The position numbers and the translations under genes were made by a program. 53,987 nucleotides of DNA. Origin: Aeromicrobium sp. GTDB lineage: Bacteria; Actinomycetota; Actinomycetes; Propionibacteriales; Nocardioidaceae. The DNA lies in assembly GCA_025965115.1 (NCBI GenBank), contig JAOPXO010000081.1:1-53987 (forward strand), written 5' to 3'. The notes beneath the pieces are model-generated. The model was not told the DNA's origin and did no database searches. It saw only the letters and a list, made by a program, of their open reading frames with translations. This document shows, one piece after another, positions 30,832 through 37,653 of the stretch. The number at the start of each line of letters is the position of its first letter. Position 1 is the stretch's first letter.

Positions 30832-32259
30832 TCAGACGGGGCGAGGGTTCTTGTCGTGCGGATCGCGTACGGCGTCGAGCTCGCGCAGGAAGTTGCCGGC
30901 CCACAGTTCGATGTTGTTCTCCATGACCTGGCGGCGCATCGCCTTCATGCGGCGGGCGTTCTCGCGTGGGCTCGCATTGATCGCCGCCAGCAACATCTGC
31001 TTCATGCCGTTGATGTCGTGCGGATTGACCTGATAGGCCGACTTGAGCTCCGACGCGGCGCCGGCGAACTCGCTCAGCACCAAGGCTCCGCGCTCGTCGA
31101 AGCGACATGCGACGTACTCCTTGGCGACCAGATTCATGCCGTCGCGCAGCGGTGTCACGACCATGACGTCCGCGGCCCGATACAGCGCTGCCATCTCCTC
31201 GCGCGGATAGGACGCGTGCAGATAGGTGACGGGCTGCTGGCCGATCCGGCCGACATCGCCGTTGATGCGACCGACCAGGCGGTTGATGTCGTCGCGCAGG
31301 ATCTTGTACTGGTTGACTCGCTCGCGAGACGGCGTGGCGACCTGGACGAAGACGGCATCGTCGACATCCAGCGCACCCTCGGTGATGAGCTCGCCAAAGG
31401 CACGGAGCCGCTGGCGCAGCCCCTTGGTGTAGTCGAGCCGGTCGATGCCGAGCAGCAACGTCTTGGGATTTCCGAGGCTCTCGCGGATCTCGGCCGCACG
31501 AGCCAGGACGGCCGGGGTGCGGGCGAGCTCTTCGAAGCCCGCCGCGTCGATCGAGATCGGGTACGCCTTGGCGAGCACCGTGCGGCCGTCGGGCAGATAG
31601 ACCGTGTCGCGATGCGTCTTGTGGCCAACGCGCTGACGAACCAGCCGGATGAAGTTCTGGGCGGCGCCGGGCATCTGGAAGCCGACCAGGTCGGCACCGA
31701 GCAATCCCTCCAGGATCTGGCGGCGCCATGGCAGCTGCTGGAACAGCTCGGTTGGCGGGAACGGGATGTGCAGGAAGAAGCCGATCTTGAGATCGGGGCG
31801 CATCTCTCGCAGCATCGCCGGGACGAGCTGGAGCTGATAGTCCTGCACCCACACGGTGCCGTTCTTCTTGGCCACCTTGGCCGCGCGTTCGGCGAATCGC
31901 CGGTTGACCTTGACGTATGAGTCCCACCACTCGCGGTGGAACTCCGGAGGGGCGACGACATCGTGATAGAGCGGCCACAATGTCGCGTTGGAGAACCCCT
32001 CGTAGTACTCCTCGACCTCGTCGTCGGACAGCGGCACCGGGATGAGATTCATACCCTCATAGGAGAAGGGGGCGAGCTTCTCATTGGCGGCGCCGTGCCA
32101 GCCGATCCACGCGCCGCCATTGCGGCGGATGACGGGTTCGAGCGCGGTGACGAGACCGCCGGGCGACTTGCGCCACATCGTCTCGCCGTCGGGACCGACG
32201 ATGCGGTCGACAGGGAGTCGGTTGGCGATCACCACGAATTCTGCGAGGCCGGACGCCAT
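30832..32259 (-). CDS. otsA: Alpha,alpha-trehalose-phosphate synthase
   Basis: 475 aa. A GT20 enzyme that joins UDP- or ADP-glucose with glucose-6-phosphate. VIANRLPV at the N-terminus, GGLVTAL (phosphate loop), [32 protein letters not shown] with the Arg-Lys pair, and [15 protein letters not shown] are all present in the right order, so the enzyme looks complete. otsB lies nearby on the opposite strand at 34192, so both trehalose steps are encoded here although not in one operon. Confidence 0.96.
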
Positions 32260-33667: not shown

Positions 33668-34195
33668 GTGGAGCACCGCAAGACTCCCAGTCGCAATGTG
33701 TTCGTCCCGCCGAGCTGGCTCGTCGTCTTCACCGCGCTGGCCTGTGCCGTCGCGGCCGCCGGCATTGGCTGGCTGATCGTCGACGGCACCGGTGGCGGCG
33801 GCACACCAGCCGCCTCGCCGACGCACACCGCGACGACACCAGCACCGACGAAGACGACAGCAACTCCGACTCCCACCCCGACGCCGACTCCCACCCCGAC
33901 ACCCACGCCGACGCCGACGGTCAGTCGCACCGGCATCGAGGTGTCGGTGCTCAACAACACCGGCACCCCTGGCGCGGCGGGCGCGTTTTCGACCAAGGTC
34001 AAGACCGCCGGCTGGACAGTCGGTGGCGTCGGCAACTGGCGCGGCTCGGTGCCCGAGGACACCGTCTACTACCCGCCGGGCCACGAGGCGGAGGCCAAGC
34101 AGCTCGGCCAGGACGTCGGCATCAGCCGTGTCCTGCCTCGGGTCGACCCGATGCGGACCGACCGGCTGACGATCATCCTCGCCGGCCCGCAATGA
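33668..34195 (+). CDS. LytR C-terminal-domain membrane protein with Thr-Pro linker
   Basis: 175 aa from GTG 33668. One transmembrane segment (WLVVFTALACAVAAAGIGWLIV, about residues 17-38) is followed by a Thr/Pro/Ala-rich linker with about ten TP repeats (residues 45-82) and a LytR_C/CpsA-type extracellular domain (IEVSVLNNTGTPGAAGAFSTKV). The domain occurs alone or behind LytR-CpsA-Psr wall-polymer ligases, so a cell-envelope role is likely. The linker would span the wall. Its stop overlaps the otsB start (ATGA). Confidence 0.82.
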   Translation: MEHRKTPSRNVFVPPSWLVVFTALACAVAAAGIGWLIVDGTGGGGTPAASPTHTATTPAPTKTTATPTPTPTPTPTPTPTPTPTVSRTGIEVSVLNNTGTPGAAGAFSTKVKTAGWTVGGVGNWRGSVPEDTVYYPPGHEAEAKQLGQDVGISRVLPRVDPMRTDRLTIILAGPQ

Positions 34196-34995
34196 TTGGG
34201 CGTATGCCCTCGTCCTTCCGTGCCGCCGTGGTCGCCGATCCGGCCGGCACCTTGCTGGCGCTCGACTTCGACGGCACCCTCGCCCATATCGTCGACGACC
34301 CGACCGAGGCCTACGCCCAAGAGCGTGGGCTCGCTGCGCTCGGACGACTTGGAGCTGTCCTCGGACAGATCGCAATCGTCACCGGTCGGCCGGTCCGCCA
34401 GGCGCTCGAGCTCGGTGGCTTCGTCGGACGTCCGGGATTCGAGAACCTGATCATCTACGGGCAGTACGGCGCCGAGCGCTGGCACGCCGATTCCGGCGAT
34501 GTCGGCGACTCCGACCGGCCCGAAGCGATCGTCCGGCTGGCCGAGCTGTTGCCGACCTGGCTGGCCGAGCACGGGGCAGATCACGTACGCCTCGAGGACA
34601 AGGGGTTGGCGCTCGCGATCCACACCCGCGGCATCGATCCGGGCCTGCTCGAGACCTTGGCGCCACCTCTGCGCGAGCTGGCCGCCGAGCTCGGGCTGGC
34701 AGTCGAGCCCGGCCGTCAGGTCATCGAGCTGCGGGCCGCCGGCATGGACAAGGGGCAGGCGATGCGGGAGTTGGTCGCCGAGACAGGTGCCCGCCAGGTC
34801 ATCTTCGCCGGTGACGACCTCGGCGACCTGCCGGCCTTCGACGCGGTCGACGAGCTGCGGAGCACCGGCGTCGCCGGACTGTTGATCTGCTCGGCGTCGA
34901 CCGAGCAGGATGCGTTGGTCGCGCGCGCCGATCTGGTGCTCGACGGCCCCGATGAGGTTGCCACCTGGCTGGAAAACCTGGCCGATGAGTTCTGA
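34192..34995 (+). CDS. otsB: Trehalose-6-phosphate phosphatase
   Basis: 267 aa; an ATG at 34204 is an alternative start. HAD-superfamily phosphatase: nucleophile motif ALDFDGTLAHI near residue 23, motif II in IVTGRPVRQ, Lys in DKGQAMRELV and motif IV in FAGDDLGDLPAF. It releases phosphate from the OtsA product. It is translationally coupled to the LytR_C gene and overlaps the next gene by 11 nt. The pathway partner otsA lies 2 kb away on the other strand. Confidence 0.93.
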   Translation: MIGRMPSSFRAAVVADPAGTLLALDFDGTLAHIVDDPTEAYAQERGLAALGRLGAVLGQIAIVTGRPVRQALELGGFVGRPGFENLIIYGQYGAERWHADSGDVGDSDRPEAIVRLAELLPTWLAEHGADHVRLEDKGLALAIHTRGIDPGLLETLAPPLRELAAELGLAVEPGRQVIELRAAGMDKGQAMRELVAETGARQVIFAGDDLGDLPAFDAVDELRSTGVAGLLICSASTEQDALVARADLVLDGPDEVATWLENLADEF

Positions 34996-35431
34996 GCTGT
35001 TGCCGCAGACGTCTTGGACCCGTGTGCGCACGGTCGTCAACTGGATCAACCTCAGCACGCTGCTGGGCCTTGCCATCGCCACGATCGGTGGTGCCACGAT
35101 CACCCGTCGGGGCCGCGGCACGTACCTCGCAACCGGCTACCGCTTCAACTTCCCGGTCGCCAGCGCGTTCACGATCGGCAGCGTGATCGACACCAAGCAC
35201 GACCTCGCCTACCTGCAGGCGCGCCCACTCCTACTGACGCACGAGGACCGGCACTGCACGCAGTACGCCGTCTGCGTCGGTGTCGTGATGCTGCCGCTCT
35301 ATTTCCTGTGTGTCGGCATCTCGTACGCGCTGGCCGGCGACCACTCCTCGTACAACCCGTTCGAGCGGCTCGCCAATCTCTCGGACGGCGGCTACCCACC
35401 GCCGACTAACCGTTTCGCCCGCAAGCCCTGA
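34985..35431 (+). CDS. Hypothetical membrane protein with HEDRH motif
   Basis: 148 aa. Helices near residues 20-38 and 94-115 could be membrane segments. Between them lies LLTHEDRHCTQYAV, with His86-Glu-x-x-His90 as in zinc metalloproteases, and a Glu in NPFERLANL near residue 128 could be a third ligand. Similar small actinobacterial proteins are unannotated. It overlaps otsB by 11 nt but need not share its function. Proteolytic activity is only suggested by the motif. Confidence 0.68.
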   Translation: MSSELLPQTSWTRVRTVVNWINLSTLLGLAIATIGGATITRRGRGTYLATGYRFNFPVASAFTIGSVIDTKHDLAYLQARPLLLTHEDRHCTQYAVCVGVVMLPLYFLCVGISYALAGDHSSYNPFERLANLSDGGYPPPTNRFARKP

Positions 35432-35526
35432 GGCGCCGACGGGACCGGTCCGGATGCTGGCCACATACCGTCCAGCATGCGGACCGAGTGGACACATCGT
35501 GAGACGCGACCGTACGCTGAACCTAC

Positions 35527-35633
35527 TCATCACGAGGGGTAGAGGGACACGGCCCTATGACACCCCAGCAACCAGTCCGACCAGACCAGGTGCTCAATCC
35601 GTCCCGGTCGACAGTCGATCCGGGAAAGATGAA
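35527..35633 (+). promoter_or_regulatory. SAM-I (S-box) riboswitch
   Basis: P1 is formed by CTCATC at 35527-35532 and GATGA at 35629-35633. Between them the conserved blocks appear in order: GAGGG...AGAGGGAC, GGCCCTATGA, CACCCCAGCAACC, GGTGCTCAATCC and GGGAAAGATGA. This is the SAM-I consensus. The ribosome site (AAAGGGA) directly follows the 3' strand of P1, 7 nt before the ATG, which suggests translational control: SAM binding stabilises P1 and lowers expression. Such switches normally govern methionine, cysteine and SAM genes. Confidence 0.93.
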
Positions 35634-35639
35634 AGGGAA

Positions 35640-36920
35640 ATGTCTGTGAGTCCCACCGCCACCTCGGACGCCATCAAGACCACGGCTCGCGAGGGCGCCT
35701 TCGGCAATGCTGTCGAGCTGGCCTGCCGCGAATGTGGCGCCACCCAGGCCCTCGGCCCGCACTACGTGTGTACGGAGTGCTTCGGTCCGCTGGAGATCGC
35801 GTACGACTTCCCGGCGATCACCCGTGAGCAGATCGAGGCCGGCCCCGCCAACATCTGGCGCTACAAGGCCCTCCTCCCAGTGCCGGACGACATCGAGCAG
35901 AGCCCCAATCTCGAGCCCGGCTACACCCGCCTCCTGCGCGCCGACAACCTCGCCGCCGAGCTCGGCCTGACGAAGCTCTGGGTCAAGGACGACAGCACCA
36001 ACCCCACCAACTCGTTCAAGGACCGCGTCGTCGCGTGCGCCCTGAGCGCCGCCCGCGAGTTCGGGAGCAAGGTGTTCGCCTGCCCCTCGACCGGCAACCT
36101 CGCCAACGCGGTCGCCGCCGCCGGAGCCCGCGCCGGCATCCGGACCGTCGTGTTCATCCCCAGCAACCTCGAGACACCGAAGCAGATCAACTCGGCGGTC
36201 TACACCGAGAACCTCGTCGCGGTCGACGGCAACTACGACGACGTCAACAAGCTCGCCAGTGAGATCGCCGGTGAGGAGGATGGCTGGGCATTCGTGAATG
36301 TCAACGTCCGCCCGTTCTACGCCGAGGGCTCAAAGACTCTCGGCTATGAGATCGCCGAACAGCTCGGCTGGCGGTTGCCCGACCAGATCGTCATCCCCGT
36401 GGCCTCCGGCTCGCAGCTGACCAAGGTGCACAAGGCCTTCCAGGAACTGGTGAAGCTCGGGCTCGTCGAGGACAAGCCCTACAAGGTGTTCGGTGCCCAG
36501 GCGACCGGCTGCTCGCCGGTGTCCGAGGCATTCCGTGAGGGCTGGGACGCCGTACGCCCGGTCAAGCCCGACACGATCGCCAAGTCGCTGGCAATCGGCA
36601 ACCCCGCTGACGGGGTGTACGTCCTCGATATCTGCCGTGAGACCGGTGGCGCCGTGGCCGACGTCTCCGACGATGAGGTCCGTGACGCGATCGTGCTCCT
36701 CGCGCGCACCGAGGGAATCTTCACCGAGACTGCGGGCGGCACCACGATCGGCGTGCTCAAGAAGCTCGTCGAGACCGGTCAGCTCGACCCCGAGCTCGAG
36801 ACCGTCGTCATCAACACCGGTCACGGGCTCAAGACCCTCGACGCGGTGTCGAAGCTCGTCGGTCCAGCCGCCACCATCGCCCCGACGTACGCGGCCTTTG
36901 TCGCCGCCGGTATCGCCTGA
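35640..36920 (+). CDS. thrC: Threonine synthase-like PLP enzyme under SAM riboswitch (possible homocysteine synthase)
   Basis: 426 aa. A four-Cys zinc-ribbon-like knuckle at residues 29, 32, 44 and 47 is followed by a type II PLP fold: NPTNSFKDR with Schiff-base Lys127, PSTGNLANAVAA (phosphate/carboxylate loop) and GSQLTKVHKAF. Threonine synthase acts on O-phosphohomoserine. Two facts argue for another product here: a SAM-I riboswitch precedes it, and a sulfur-carrier gene follows 39 bp later. Homocysteine formation from O-phosphohomoserine and carrier thiocarboxylate would fit both. I recall a Streptomyces route of this kind but have not checked it. The classical hom-thrC-thrB locus is not in the window. 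Confidence 0.88.
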   Translation: MSVSPTATSDAIKTTAREGAFGNAVELACRECGATQALGPHYVCTECFGPLEIAYDFPAITREQIEAGPANIWRYKALLPVPDDIEQSPNLEPGYTRLLRADNLAAELGLTKLWVKDDSTNPTNSFKDRVVACALSAAREFGSKVFACPSTGNLANAVAAAGARAGIRTVVFIPSNLETPKQINSAVYTENLVAVDGNYDDVNKLASEIAGEEDGWAFVNVNVRPFYAEGSKTLGYEIAEQLGWRLPDQIVIPVASGSQLTKVHKAFQELVKLGLVEDKPYKVFGAQATGCSPVSEAFREGWDAVRPVKPDTIAKSLAIGNPADGVYVLDICRETGGAVADVSDDEVRDAIVLLARTEGIFTETAGGTTIGVLKKLVETGQLDPELETVVINTGHGLKTLDAVSKLVGPAATIAPTYAAFVAAGIA

Positions 36921-36959
36921 GCATCTAGCGCCTGAGTCACTGAGAAGCCAAGGAGCAGA

Positions 36960-37238
36960 GTGAGCATCAACGTCCGAATCCCCACGATCCTGCGCACCTA
37001 CACGCAGGACCAGTCCCAGGTCACTGCCGAGGGAGCCACGCTGACCGAGGTGCTCGACTCGCTGGAGACGAACTTCCCCGGCATCAAGGCGCGGGTCGTC
37101 GACGAGCAGGGTGCCCTGCGCCGCTTCGTCAACATCTATGTCGCCGAGGAGGATGTCCGGTTCGCCAGCGGCCTCGACACCCCGACCCCCGACGGCACCC
37201 AGGTTTCGATAATTCCGGCCGTCGCCGGAGGTTGCTGA
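36960..37238 (+). CDS. MoaD/ThiS/CysO-like sulfur carrier protein ending Gly-Gly-Cys
   Basis: 92 aa from GTG 36960 with AAGGAG upstream. Beta-grasp ubiquitin-like protein close to mycobacterial Cys[10 protein letters not shown] at the start, [13 protein letters not shown] in the middle and a C-terminus PAVAGGC. Carriers of this family end in Gly-Gly, which is adenylated and turned into a thiocarboxylate. Here one further residue, Cys92, is encoded, so the gene product has the same sequence as the CysO-cysteine adduct and would need a Mec-type metallohydrolase to expose Gly-Gly. It is co-transcribed with the riboswitch-controlled PLP enzyme. Confidence 0.88.
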
Positions 37239-37339
37239 CCAACGCCCAGCCGTGGCCTGCGGTGGCAGCGCCGTATACGCTCTGTTCATACAGGGGCCTC
37301 GGCAGATGGGTCTTTGCAGGAACAGGTGGGAGTGGCGGC

Positions 37340-37540
37340 ATGGTGCAAGGCACCGTCAAGTGGTTCAACGCTGACAAGGGTTATGGCTTCATCGAGATCG
37401 AAGGCCAGGACGATGTCTTCGTCCACTGGTCCAAGATCGCGTCCGACGGCTACAAGACTCTCGAGGACGGCCAGAAGGTCGAGTTCGAAGTGGTTGATGG
37501 TCCGAAGGGCCGAGAAGCCCACGAAGTCATCGGGCAGTAG
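37340..37540 (+). CDS. Cold-shock protein (CspA family)
   Basis: 66 aa, full length. OB-fold single-strand RNA/DNA binder: [15 protein letters not shown] (RNP1) and DVFVHWSKI (RNP2). The 101-nt leader suggests its own promoter. From memory the order threonine-synthase-like, MoaD-like, cold-shock, groEL2 also occurs in Streptomyces, so this neighbourhood looks ancestral. A strong terminator follows. Confidence 0.94.
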
Positions 37541-37549
37541 GCCCGCGAA

Positions 37550-37583
37550 GTAGCCCGGTTCCTCGCGGAGCCGGGCTACTTTT
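37550..37583 (+). terminator. Rho-independent terminator after the cold-shock gene
   Basis: GTAGCCCGG (37550-37558) pairs with CCGGGCTAC (37571-37579) around a 12-nt loop and is followed by TTTT. It ends the thrC-like/carrier/csp region before the membrane operon. Confidence 0.92.
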
Positions 37584-37628
37584 GTGTGCGGAGCGTGTAT
37601 CGGCTGGTCCACCGTGGCGCGGGTCACC

Positions 37629-37653
37629 TATGTGACACTTGCAATGTCACATA
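37629..37653. promoter_or_regulatory. Perfect 9-bp inverted repeat, candidate operator
   Basis: Arms TATGTGACA and TGTCACATA flank a 7-bp spacer. It lies 20 bp before the ATG of the four-gene membrane operon, so a bound dimer would block the promoter or ribosome site. The spacing differs from CRP/FNR sites (TGTGA-N6-TCACA). No regulator gene is adjacent. Confidence 0.68.

Follow-up and report, generated by a model that had tools for sequence, protein, structure and literature searches.

A probable MetM/MetO locus under a SAM-I riboswitch in Aeromicrobium, with a cysteine-tailed sulfur carrier

Why should a SAM-I riboswitch stand ahead of a gene that resembles threonine synthase, with a sulfur carrier gene behind it? 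This question is raised by a locus in the window, the 53,987-nucleotide stretch of Aeromicrobium sp. DNA analyzed here. The first-pass annotation of this DNA proposed that the enzyme makes homocysteine from O-phosphohomoserine and the sulfur of the carrier, with SAM control acting as feedback, and pointed to reports of such a route in Streptomyces. Such a route has been described. MetM of Streptomyces is a homocysteine synthase that acts on O-phosphohomoserine (Hasebe et al. 2024, doi 10.1128/aem.01247-24, as cited in the available text of PMC12172450). That text also mentions metO, a gene of S. albulus for a putative sulfur carrier, and places a SAM riboswitch upstream of metM. Replacement of the phosphate by the sulfur of the carrier is reported for Streptomyces.

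The locus is very probably a MetM/MetO module of the methionine branch that is subject to feedback by SAM; in it, Mec would trim the carrier and MetM would make homocysteine. The pathway proposed at first pass is thus supported by its match to the MetM/MetO pathway. This kind of system is already described, in Streptomyces. The tail pattern of MetO and the loci in which MetO is missing are additions, which were not found in the literature searched (most subscription journals lie outside it).

Riboswitch, gene order and start of translation

The riboswitch, metM and metO are encoded in this order on the forward strand (Table 1), and metO lies directly downstream of metM, 39 nt after its stop codon. 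A covariance-model scan (cmscan) confirmed the SAM-I riboswitch. RF00162 matched over model positions 1-108 of 108 with 70.8 bits, against a gathering threshold of 44.4 (E 1.3e-14), and is the single Rfam family to reach its gathering threshold in the whole window. The reading of the downstream genes as a threonine-synthase-like enzyme (PF00291, TIGR00260) and a sulfur carrier (PF02597) was likewise borne out. Upstream of the locus lie genes for a trehalose-phosphate synthase (GT20; 30832-32259, reverse strand) and, on the strand opposite to it, a trehalose-phosphatase (34192-34995, forward strand). A cold-shock protein gene (37340-37540) follows about 100 nt downstream of metO. Comparison with named relatives puts the window close to Aeromicrobium, the best match being an Aeromicrobium MAG at 92% identity.

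The riboswitch is a constant companion of metM. An Rfam riboswitch match was found in all 20 related loci given to the search, which were drawn from the 109 MetM loci other than the window's own. Our own covariance model, built from 18 aptamers, matched 100 of 100 sources (the window and L008-L106) and 49 of 55 further sources. Sorted by gene content, it matched 149/149 MetM loci and 0/6 other loci; some of the 149 represent one genome twice, 18 served to train the model, and 39 are class-level loci picked via their MetO. The six unmatched loci (L005, L001, L147, L153, L154 and L225) all lack metM. Two of them, L153 and L154, are metX regions, and no such aptamer was present in either. The genome searched comprises 3.03 Mb in 293 contigs and is 88% complete; a second SAM-I riboswitch was not found in it.

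The anatomy of the leader suggests how control would be exerted. CTCATC and GATGA are invariant in 18/18 aligned aptamers. A leader pattern, which itself demanded GATGA, caught 131 of the 149 loci (127 unique leaders) and missed 18. CTCATC stands at the 5' end of 126/127 unique leaders, and the 3' strand of P1 reads GATGAG in 111/127. By the lax criterion of four or more bases of AAAGGAGGTGA, all 127 leaders contain a Shine-Dalgarno-like motif. Counted from the first base of the P1 3' strand, it starts 3-10 nt downstream in 126/127 and 11 nt downstream in one. Since a T run of four or more bases within 25 nt from GATGA on occurs in just 1/127 leaders, very little space is left for a terminator. 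No terminator-like site was found in 35380-37640, and the start of metM lies 11 nt after the aptamer; terminator-based control was rejected on these grounds. A promoter scan at the locus found nothing, which says little for an actinobacterium. Because the aptamer abuts the ribosome-binding site, control is probably translational, and we infer from this anatomy that formation of P1 governs translation of metM.

The genes and the riboswitch were read correctly at first pass; the enzyme start is corrected here. In 20 relatives, the first in-frame start codon past the aptamer follows it at a distance of 7 to 19 nt (11-16 nt in 18/20); in-frame ATG codons inside the aptamer of some relatives were passed over when placing starts. 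Three close relatives (L008, L037 and L038) have a GTG at +11, the same as the window. On the basis of this spacing, metM most likely starts at GTG 35646, with AAAGGG 8 nt upstream, and ATG 35640 is less likely.

Table 1. Coordinates of the riboswitch, gene and motif features of the locus
Feature	Position	Strand	Remarks
SAM-I (S-box) riboswitch aptamer	35524..35635	+	RF00162, full model
P1 helix, 5' strand CTCATC	35526..35531	+	register from Rfam match
P1 helix, 3' strand GATGAA	35628..35633	+	runs into ribosome-binding site
Probable Shine-Dalgarno AAAGGG	35632..35637	+	overlaps end of P1
metM	35646..36920	+	424 aa from GTG start; threonine-synthase paralogue, probable homocysteine synthase
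Zinc-ribbon-like CxxC...CxxC of MetM N-terminus (C27, C30, C42, C45)	35724..35780	+	motif pattern
PLP lysine K125 in NPTNSFKDRVV	36018..36020	+	assigned by alignment to threonine synthases
metO	36960..37238	+	92-aa sulfur carrier protein ending in AVAGGC
Extra cysteine codon TGC after GG motif of metO	37233..37235	+	sequence, tail survey

MetM, threonine synthase and the acyl-homoserine route

MetM is a PLP fold-type II enzyme that passes the threonine synthase model TIGR00260 with 263.4 bits (cut-off 167.1). NCBIfam PRK08197 was rejected as a family name, since its score of 292 falls under its cut-off of 303. The solved sequences nearest to MetM are threonine synthases, as are the solved structures closest to its predicted fold (mean pLDDT 80, 21 rows), a model used for fold identity alone.

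The site motifs set MetM apart. The window MetM carries NPTNSFKDRVV, NVNVRPFYAEGSKT, PVASGSQ and ETAGG. The ThrC of the same genome carries NPTGSFKDRGM, N-SVNPMRLQGQKT (the GQKT motif), PVGNAGN and EPASA. In this ThrC and two others of the order, the motifs take the form NPTGSFKDRGM, N-S-V/I-N-P-x-R-x-x-GQKT, PVGNAGN and EPASA, and these are absent from MetM. The lysine K125 is invariant in 21 MetM rows and aligns with NPTGSFKDRGM of ThrC. Both NPT[NH]SFKDRVV and NVN[VL]RPxx[AS]EGSKT are present in 110/110 MetM rows, CPSTGNLANAV and ETAGG in 108/110 each, and P[VIL]ASGSQLT in 107/110. The 39 class-level loci are slightly more variable at the second motif, which L209 fails to match. The N-terminal CxxC...CxxC occurs in 109/110 MetM rows, and its columns are nearly invariant in 21 rows. 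This motif set provides a simple means to re-annotate genes that still score as 'threonine synthase'.

Overall identity and phylogeny agree with the motifs. The window MetM shares 64.0-68.5% identity with five MetM from group f22/g38 and 34.2% with the ThrC of its own genome. A phylogeny against the hom-thrB-linked ThrC had been suggested at first pass; in a tree of 30 MetM and four ThrC-like rows, the two sets separate in one step (SH-aLRT 91). One ThrC-like row, L149, sits on a very long branch and does not carry the ThrC motifs, so that the comparison is of three canonical ThrC rows with 30 MetM rows. By motif and phylogeny, the window MetM is distinct from the canonical threonine synthase of its genome.

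Other genes of the pathway are found elsewhere in the genome. A hom-thrC-thrB operon, its ThrC motifs intact, lies on another contig, and the worry that the locus might hold the only threonine synthase of the organism is thereby removed. The operon mec-cysO-cysM is also on another contig, and the ThiF-family E1 search gave one clear match plus two weak ones below the cut-off.

Family membership is no guarantee of homocysteine synthesis. According to the available text of PMC12172450, a cyanobacterial homologue that shares 51.6% identity with the MetM of S. albulus converts O-phosphohomoserine into threonine and also degrades threonine (deaminase activity). Beyond this, that text gives just a peak of unassigned identity close to methionine, and its authors do not see the full function of MetM inside the cell.

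The alternatives to MetM were surveyed across the order, in 147 genomes. A score of 640 bits or more was required for MetM. MetX was counted above 300 bits because the curated cut-off of TIGR01392 was reached in 0/7 of the control genomes that gave a signal; weaker MetX hits, of 170.5 bits and below, were dropped. MetM is present in 102/147 genomes and MetX in 86/147: 57 genomes have MetM without MetX, 45 have both, 41 have MetX without MetM and four have neither. The two genes are anticorrelated (Fisher p 2.6e-8, genomes not independent), in a contrast that leans on one family, f2, the source of 40 of the 41 genomes with MetX alone. MetA (PF04204) was found in 0/147 genomes of the order, with control genomes positive in 6/14, so that MetM stands without both MetX and MetA in 57/147 genomes. 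PF01053 enzymes (MetB/MetY types) occur in 144/147 genomes and therefore do not discriminate. Among the four genomes with neither MetM nor MetX, three also lack a PF01053 match and one is split into about 590 contigs. The recently described homocysteine route is thus supported in another order, where many MetM genomes (57/102) do without the acylhomoserine route.

This is not the situation in the organism at hand. All 14 genomes of its genus have both MetM and MetX, which rules out that the acyl-homoserine route has been fully replaced there; the MetX gene of the window organism itself runs off the end of contig C102. In this genus, the MetM route is an addition and not a replacement, and MetM need not be the sole or an essential route.

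The MetO carrier and its C-terminal tail

MetO is a ThiS-family protein (PF02597, E 1.9e-15). It is 58% identical over 91 residues to the CysO of the same genome, but follows metM and lies outside mec-cysO-cysM. Among 110 loci (L008-L116 plus that of the window), metO is directly downstream of metM in 97, or in 97 of the 108 assessable ones, two misses being due to a contig end.

One feature can be added to the first-pass annotation: the carrier ends in AVAGGC, not in GG. As translated, MetO extends one residue past the usual GG. The extra cysteine probably must be removed before the GG end can be thiocarboxylated. We compared carrier ends in 31 genomes (the organism's own, 29 others with MetM and one without it). 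Residues after GG occur in 18/30 MetO, 14 of them a single Cys, and in 19/31 CysO; none occur in 35 ThiS/MoaD. A JAMM motif lies near 29/29 CysO loci and a cysM motif near 27/29. The presence of tails on MetO and CysO, and not on ThiS/MoaD, suggests that both are matured by the JAMM peptidase Mec. Two published observations bear on this. In the accessible text of PMC3227635, the linkage that Mec hydrolyses is GG-Cys. In that of PMC1779556, JAB peptidases are absent near thiamine and molybdenum-cofactor genes and present with cysteine synthase.

The tails of the two carriers differ in kind. All unique carrier sequences were gathered and sorted into MetO and CysO by C-terminal motif. Tails are present on 47/132 unique MetO (39 of them single Cys) and on 25/43 unique CysO (four single Cys), a difference in single-Cys share with a Fisher p of 3.6e-8, rows not independent. 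Of the 72 tails, 70 begin with Ala, Ser or Cys. The 39 class-level MetO comprise 15 GGC and 24 GG ends and no other tail type, and the MetO of the five f22/g38 loci are divided between GGC (three) and GG (two). Some relatives (L133, L174, L134 and L137) have longer CysO tails, in which 8 to 16 residues follow GG; this is beyond one stray codon. A genome of the same family (G017; loci L153 and L118) has MetX and no MetM, and its CysO has the tail SH; CysO tails are thus independent of MetM. No direct text on the C-terminal tails of CysO or MetO was found in the literature searched, most subscription journals being outside it.

At the DNA level, GG-only MetO genes mostly end in GGCTGA and Cys-tailed ones mostly in GGCTGCTGA, which is one GCT duplication away. 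At least 21 changes between the Cys and no-tail states are required on one MetM tree (136 rows). Untailed CysO genes also mostly end in GGCTGA (12/18). The duplication explains an easy origin of the Cys tail and leaves the difference between MetO and CysO unexplained.

In 11 loci, metM and its riboswitch have no metO beside them; four are from Nocardioides and seven from Pseudonocardiaceae. The nearest carrier found in all 11 genomes is the CysO of mec-cysO-cysM, and four also have a more distant carrier. MetX is present in seven of the 11, including one (G331) in which it lies in three adjacent pieces and was scored as present; the other four gave no match, hits of 161.8 bits and below having been dropped except in G331. 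In these relatives, MetM may use CysO-thiocarboxylate or sulfide. The distant carrier of Lentzea (L251-L253) is 44-47% identical to MetO and ends in LPSVAGG; no metM, cysM or mec motifs were seen in the stretch fetched around it.

Three other explanations of these data deserve weighing. MetM could be a second threonine synthase, an isozyme whose SAM control tunes the flux from O-phosphohomoserine between threonine and methionine, while the carrier serves something else. Its TIGR00260 match (263 bits), its closest solved sequences and folds and the in vitro threonine synthase activity of the cyanobacterial homologue (PMC12172450, available text) are all compatible with this. The genome nevertheless has a complete hom-thrC-thrB operon whose motifs are canonical, the riboswitch predicted at 149/149 MetM loci is for SAM and not for threonine, the metM-metO pair is retained at nearly all assessable loci, and MetM stands in 57/147 genomes that have neither MetX nor MetA. 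An isozyme is accordingly very improbable. Homocysteine synthesis by MetM with MetO as an optional donor, with free sulfide or CysO-thiocarboxylate serving no less well than MetO-thiocarboxylate, is a more serious contender. It draws on the 11 loci with CysO as the nearest carrier, four of them in genomes without a MetX match. The same genomes also weaken it, since four have another carrier, seven have MetX, and all may have another sulfur donor or homocysteine route; the joint occurrence of metM and metO in 97/108 loci also argues against it. We consider it possible, though on balance unlikely.

The cysteine tail, for its part, could be a neutral coding accident, a GCT slippage from GGCTGA to GGCTGCTGA in a protein that works untrimmed or is trimmed non-specifically. 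The two gene ends are one duplication apart, and the tail state needs 21 changes or more on the MetM tree. Untailed CysO genes mostly share the GGCTGA end, yet a single Cys makes up 4/25 CysO and 39/47 MetO tails (rows not independent). The tail-free ThiS/MoaD of the 31 genomes (0/35) and the near restriction of the first tail residue to Ala, Ser or Cys also speak against an accident, which we regard as a minority possibility. The preferred reading remains a MetM/MetO module whose carrier Mec would trim.

Proposed pathway and comparison with known systems

In the proposed pathway, Mec, the JAMM peptidase of the mec-cysO-cysM operon, would cut the encoded C-terminal Cys off pro-MetO and expose GG. 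By analogy with CysO, a MoeZ-like E1 would then adenylate and thiocarboxylate the GG end. Homology and motifs suggest that MetM would bind O-phosphohomoserine, supplied by Hom and ThrB, and swap its phosphate for the sulfur of the carrier. As in the CysO cycle, Mec would probably free the product, here homocysteine from a MetO-homocysteine amide, and the homocysteine would then be methylated to methionine. At high SAM, the aptamer would close P1 and block the Shine-Dalgarno of metM, preventing translation. Threonine would be made apart, by ThrC of hom-thrC-thrB, and the genus also keeps a homologue of MetX, which belongs to the classical route.

The tail pattern raises a testable question: does Mec, the peptidase of the cysteine pathway, also serve methionine synthesis? 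A tentative answer, which we hold less likely to be right than wrong, is that the GG-Cys end of pro-MetO mimics the GG-Cys adduct cleaved by Mec in the CysO cycle, so that one peptidase serves both branches, and that MetM without MetO draws its sulfur from CysO. If so, Mec would mature MetO, free homocysteine from it and complete cysteine synthesis. Methionine synthesis would wait until Mec is free, giving a built-in order of cysteine before methionine. MetO-less relatives would then show the cysteine and methionine branches sharing one carrier system.

The nearest known system is MetM/MetO of Streptomyces. The work of Hasebe and colleagues is said to have found that MetO acts as a thiocarboxylated sulfur donor. 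As far as PMC12172450 describes that system, a threonine-synthase-like enzyme, a carrier gene, an upstream SAM riboswitch and, by prediction for the present locus, O-phosphohomoserine as substrate are common to both. The present locus differs in belonging to another order, in a genus that also has MetX, and in the Cys that follows GG in its MetO.

The CysM/CysO/Mec system of mycobacteria offers the mechanistic parallel, in that a PLP enzyme there combines an O-phospho amino acid with the thiocarboxylate of a carrier (PMC3227635, in the text available). The locus described here would share this combination. It differs from that system in its four-carbon substrate, in a threonine-synthase rather than cysteine-synthase scaffold, in its SAM riboswitch and in having a carrier of its own, with no mec gene beside metM-metO.

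Carriers encoded with residues beyond GG form a further point of likeness. In HcyS/HcyD/MetY of Wolinella succinogenes and in QbsE/QbsD, the carrier has residues past GG and is trimmed by a JAMM peptidase before thiocarboxylation. HcyS/HcyD/MetY employs an acylhomoserine sulfhydrylase in place of a threonine-synthase paralogue. Canonical ThrC, finally, shares with MetM its fold, the region of the PLP lysine motif and the probable substrate O-phosphohomoserine; MetM differs from it in the N-terminal zinc-ribbon-like region, the changed site motifs, the separate branch and the predicted control by SAM.
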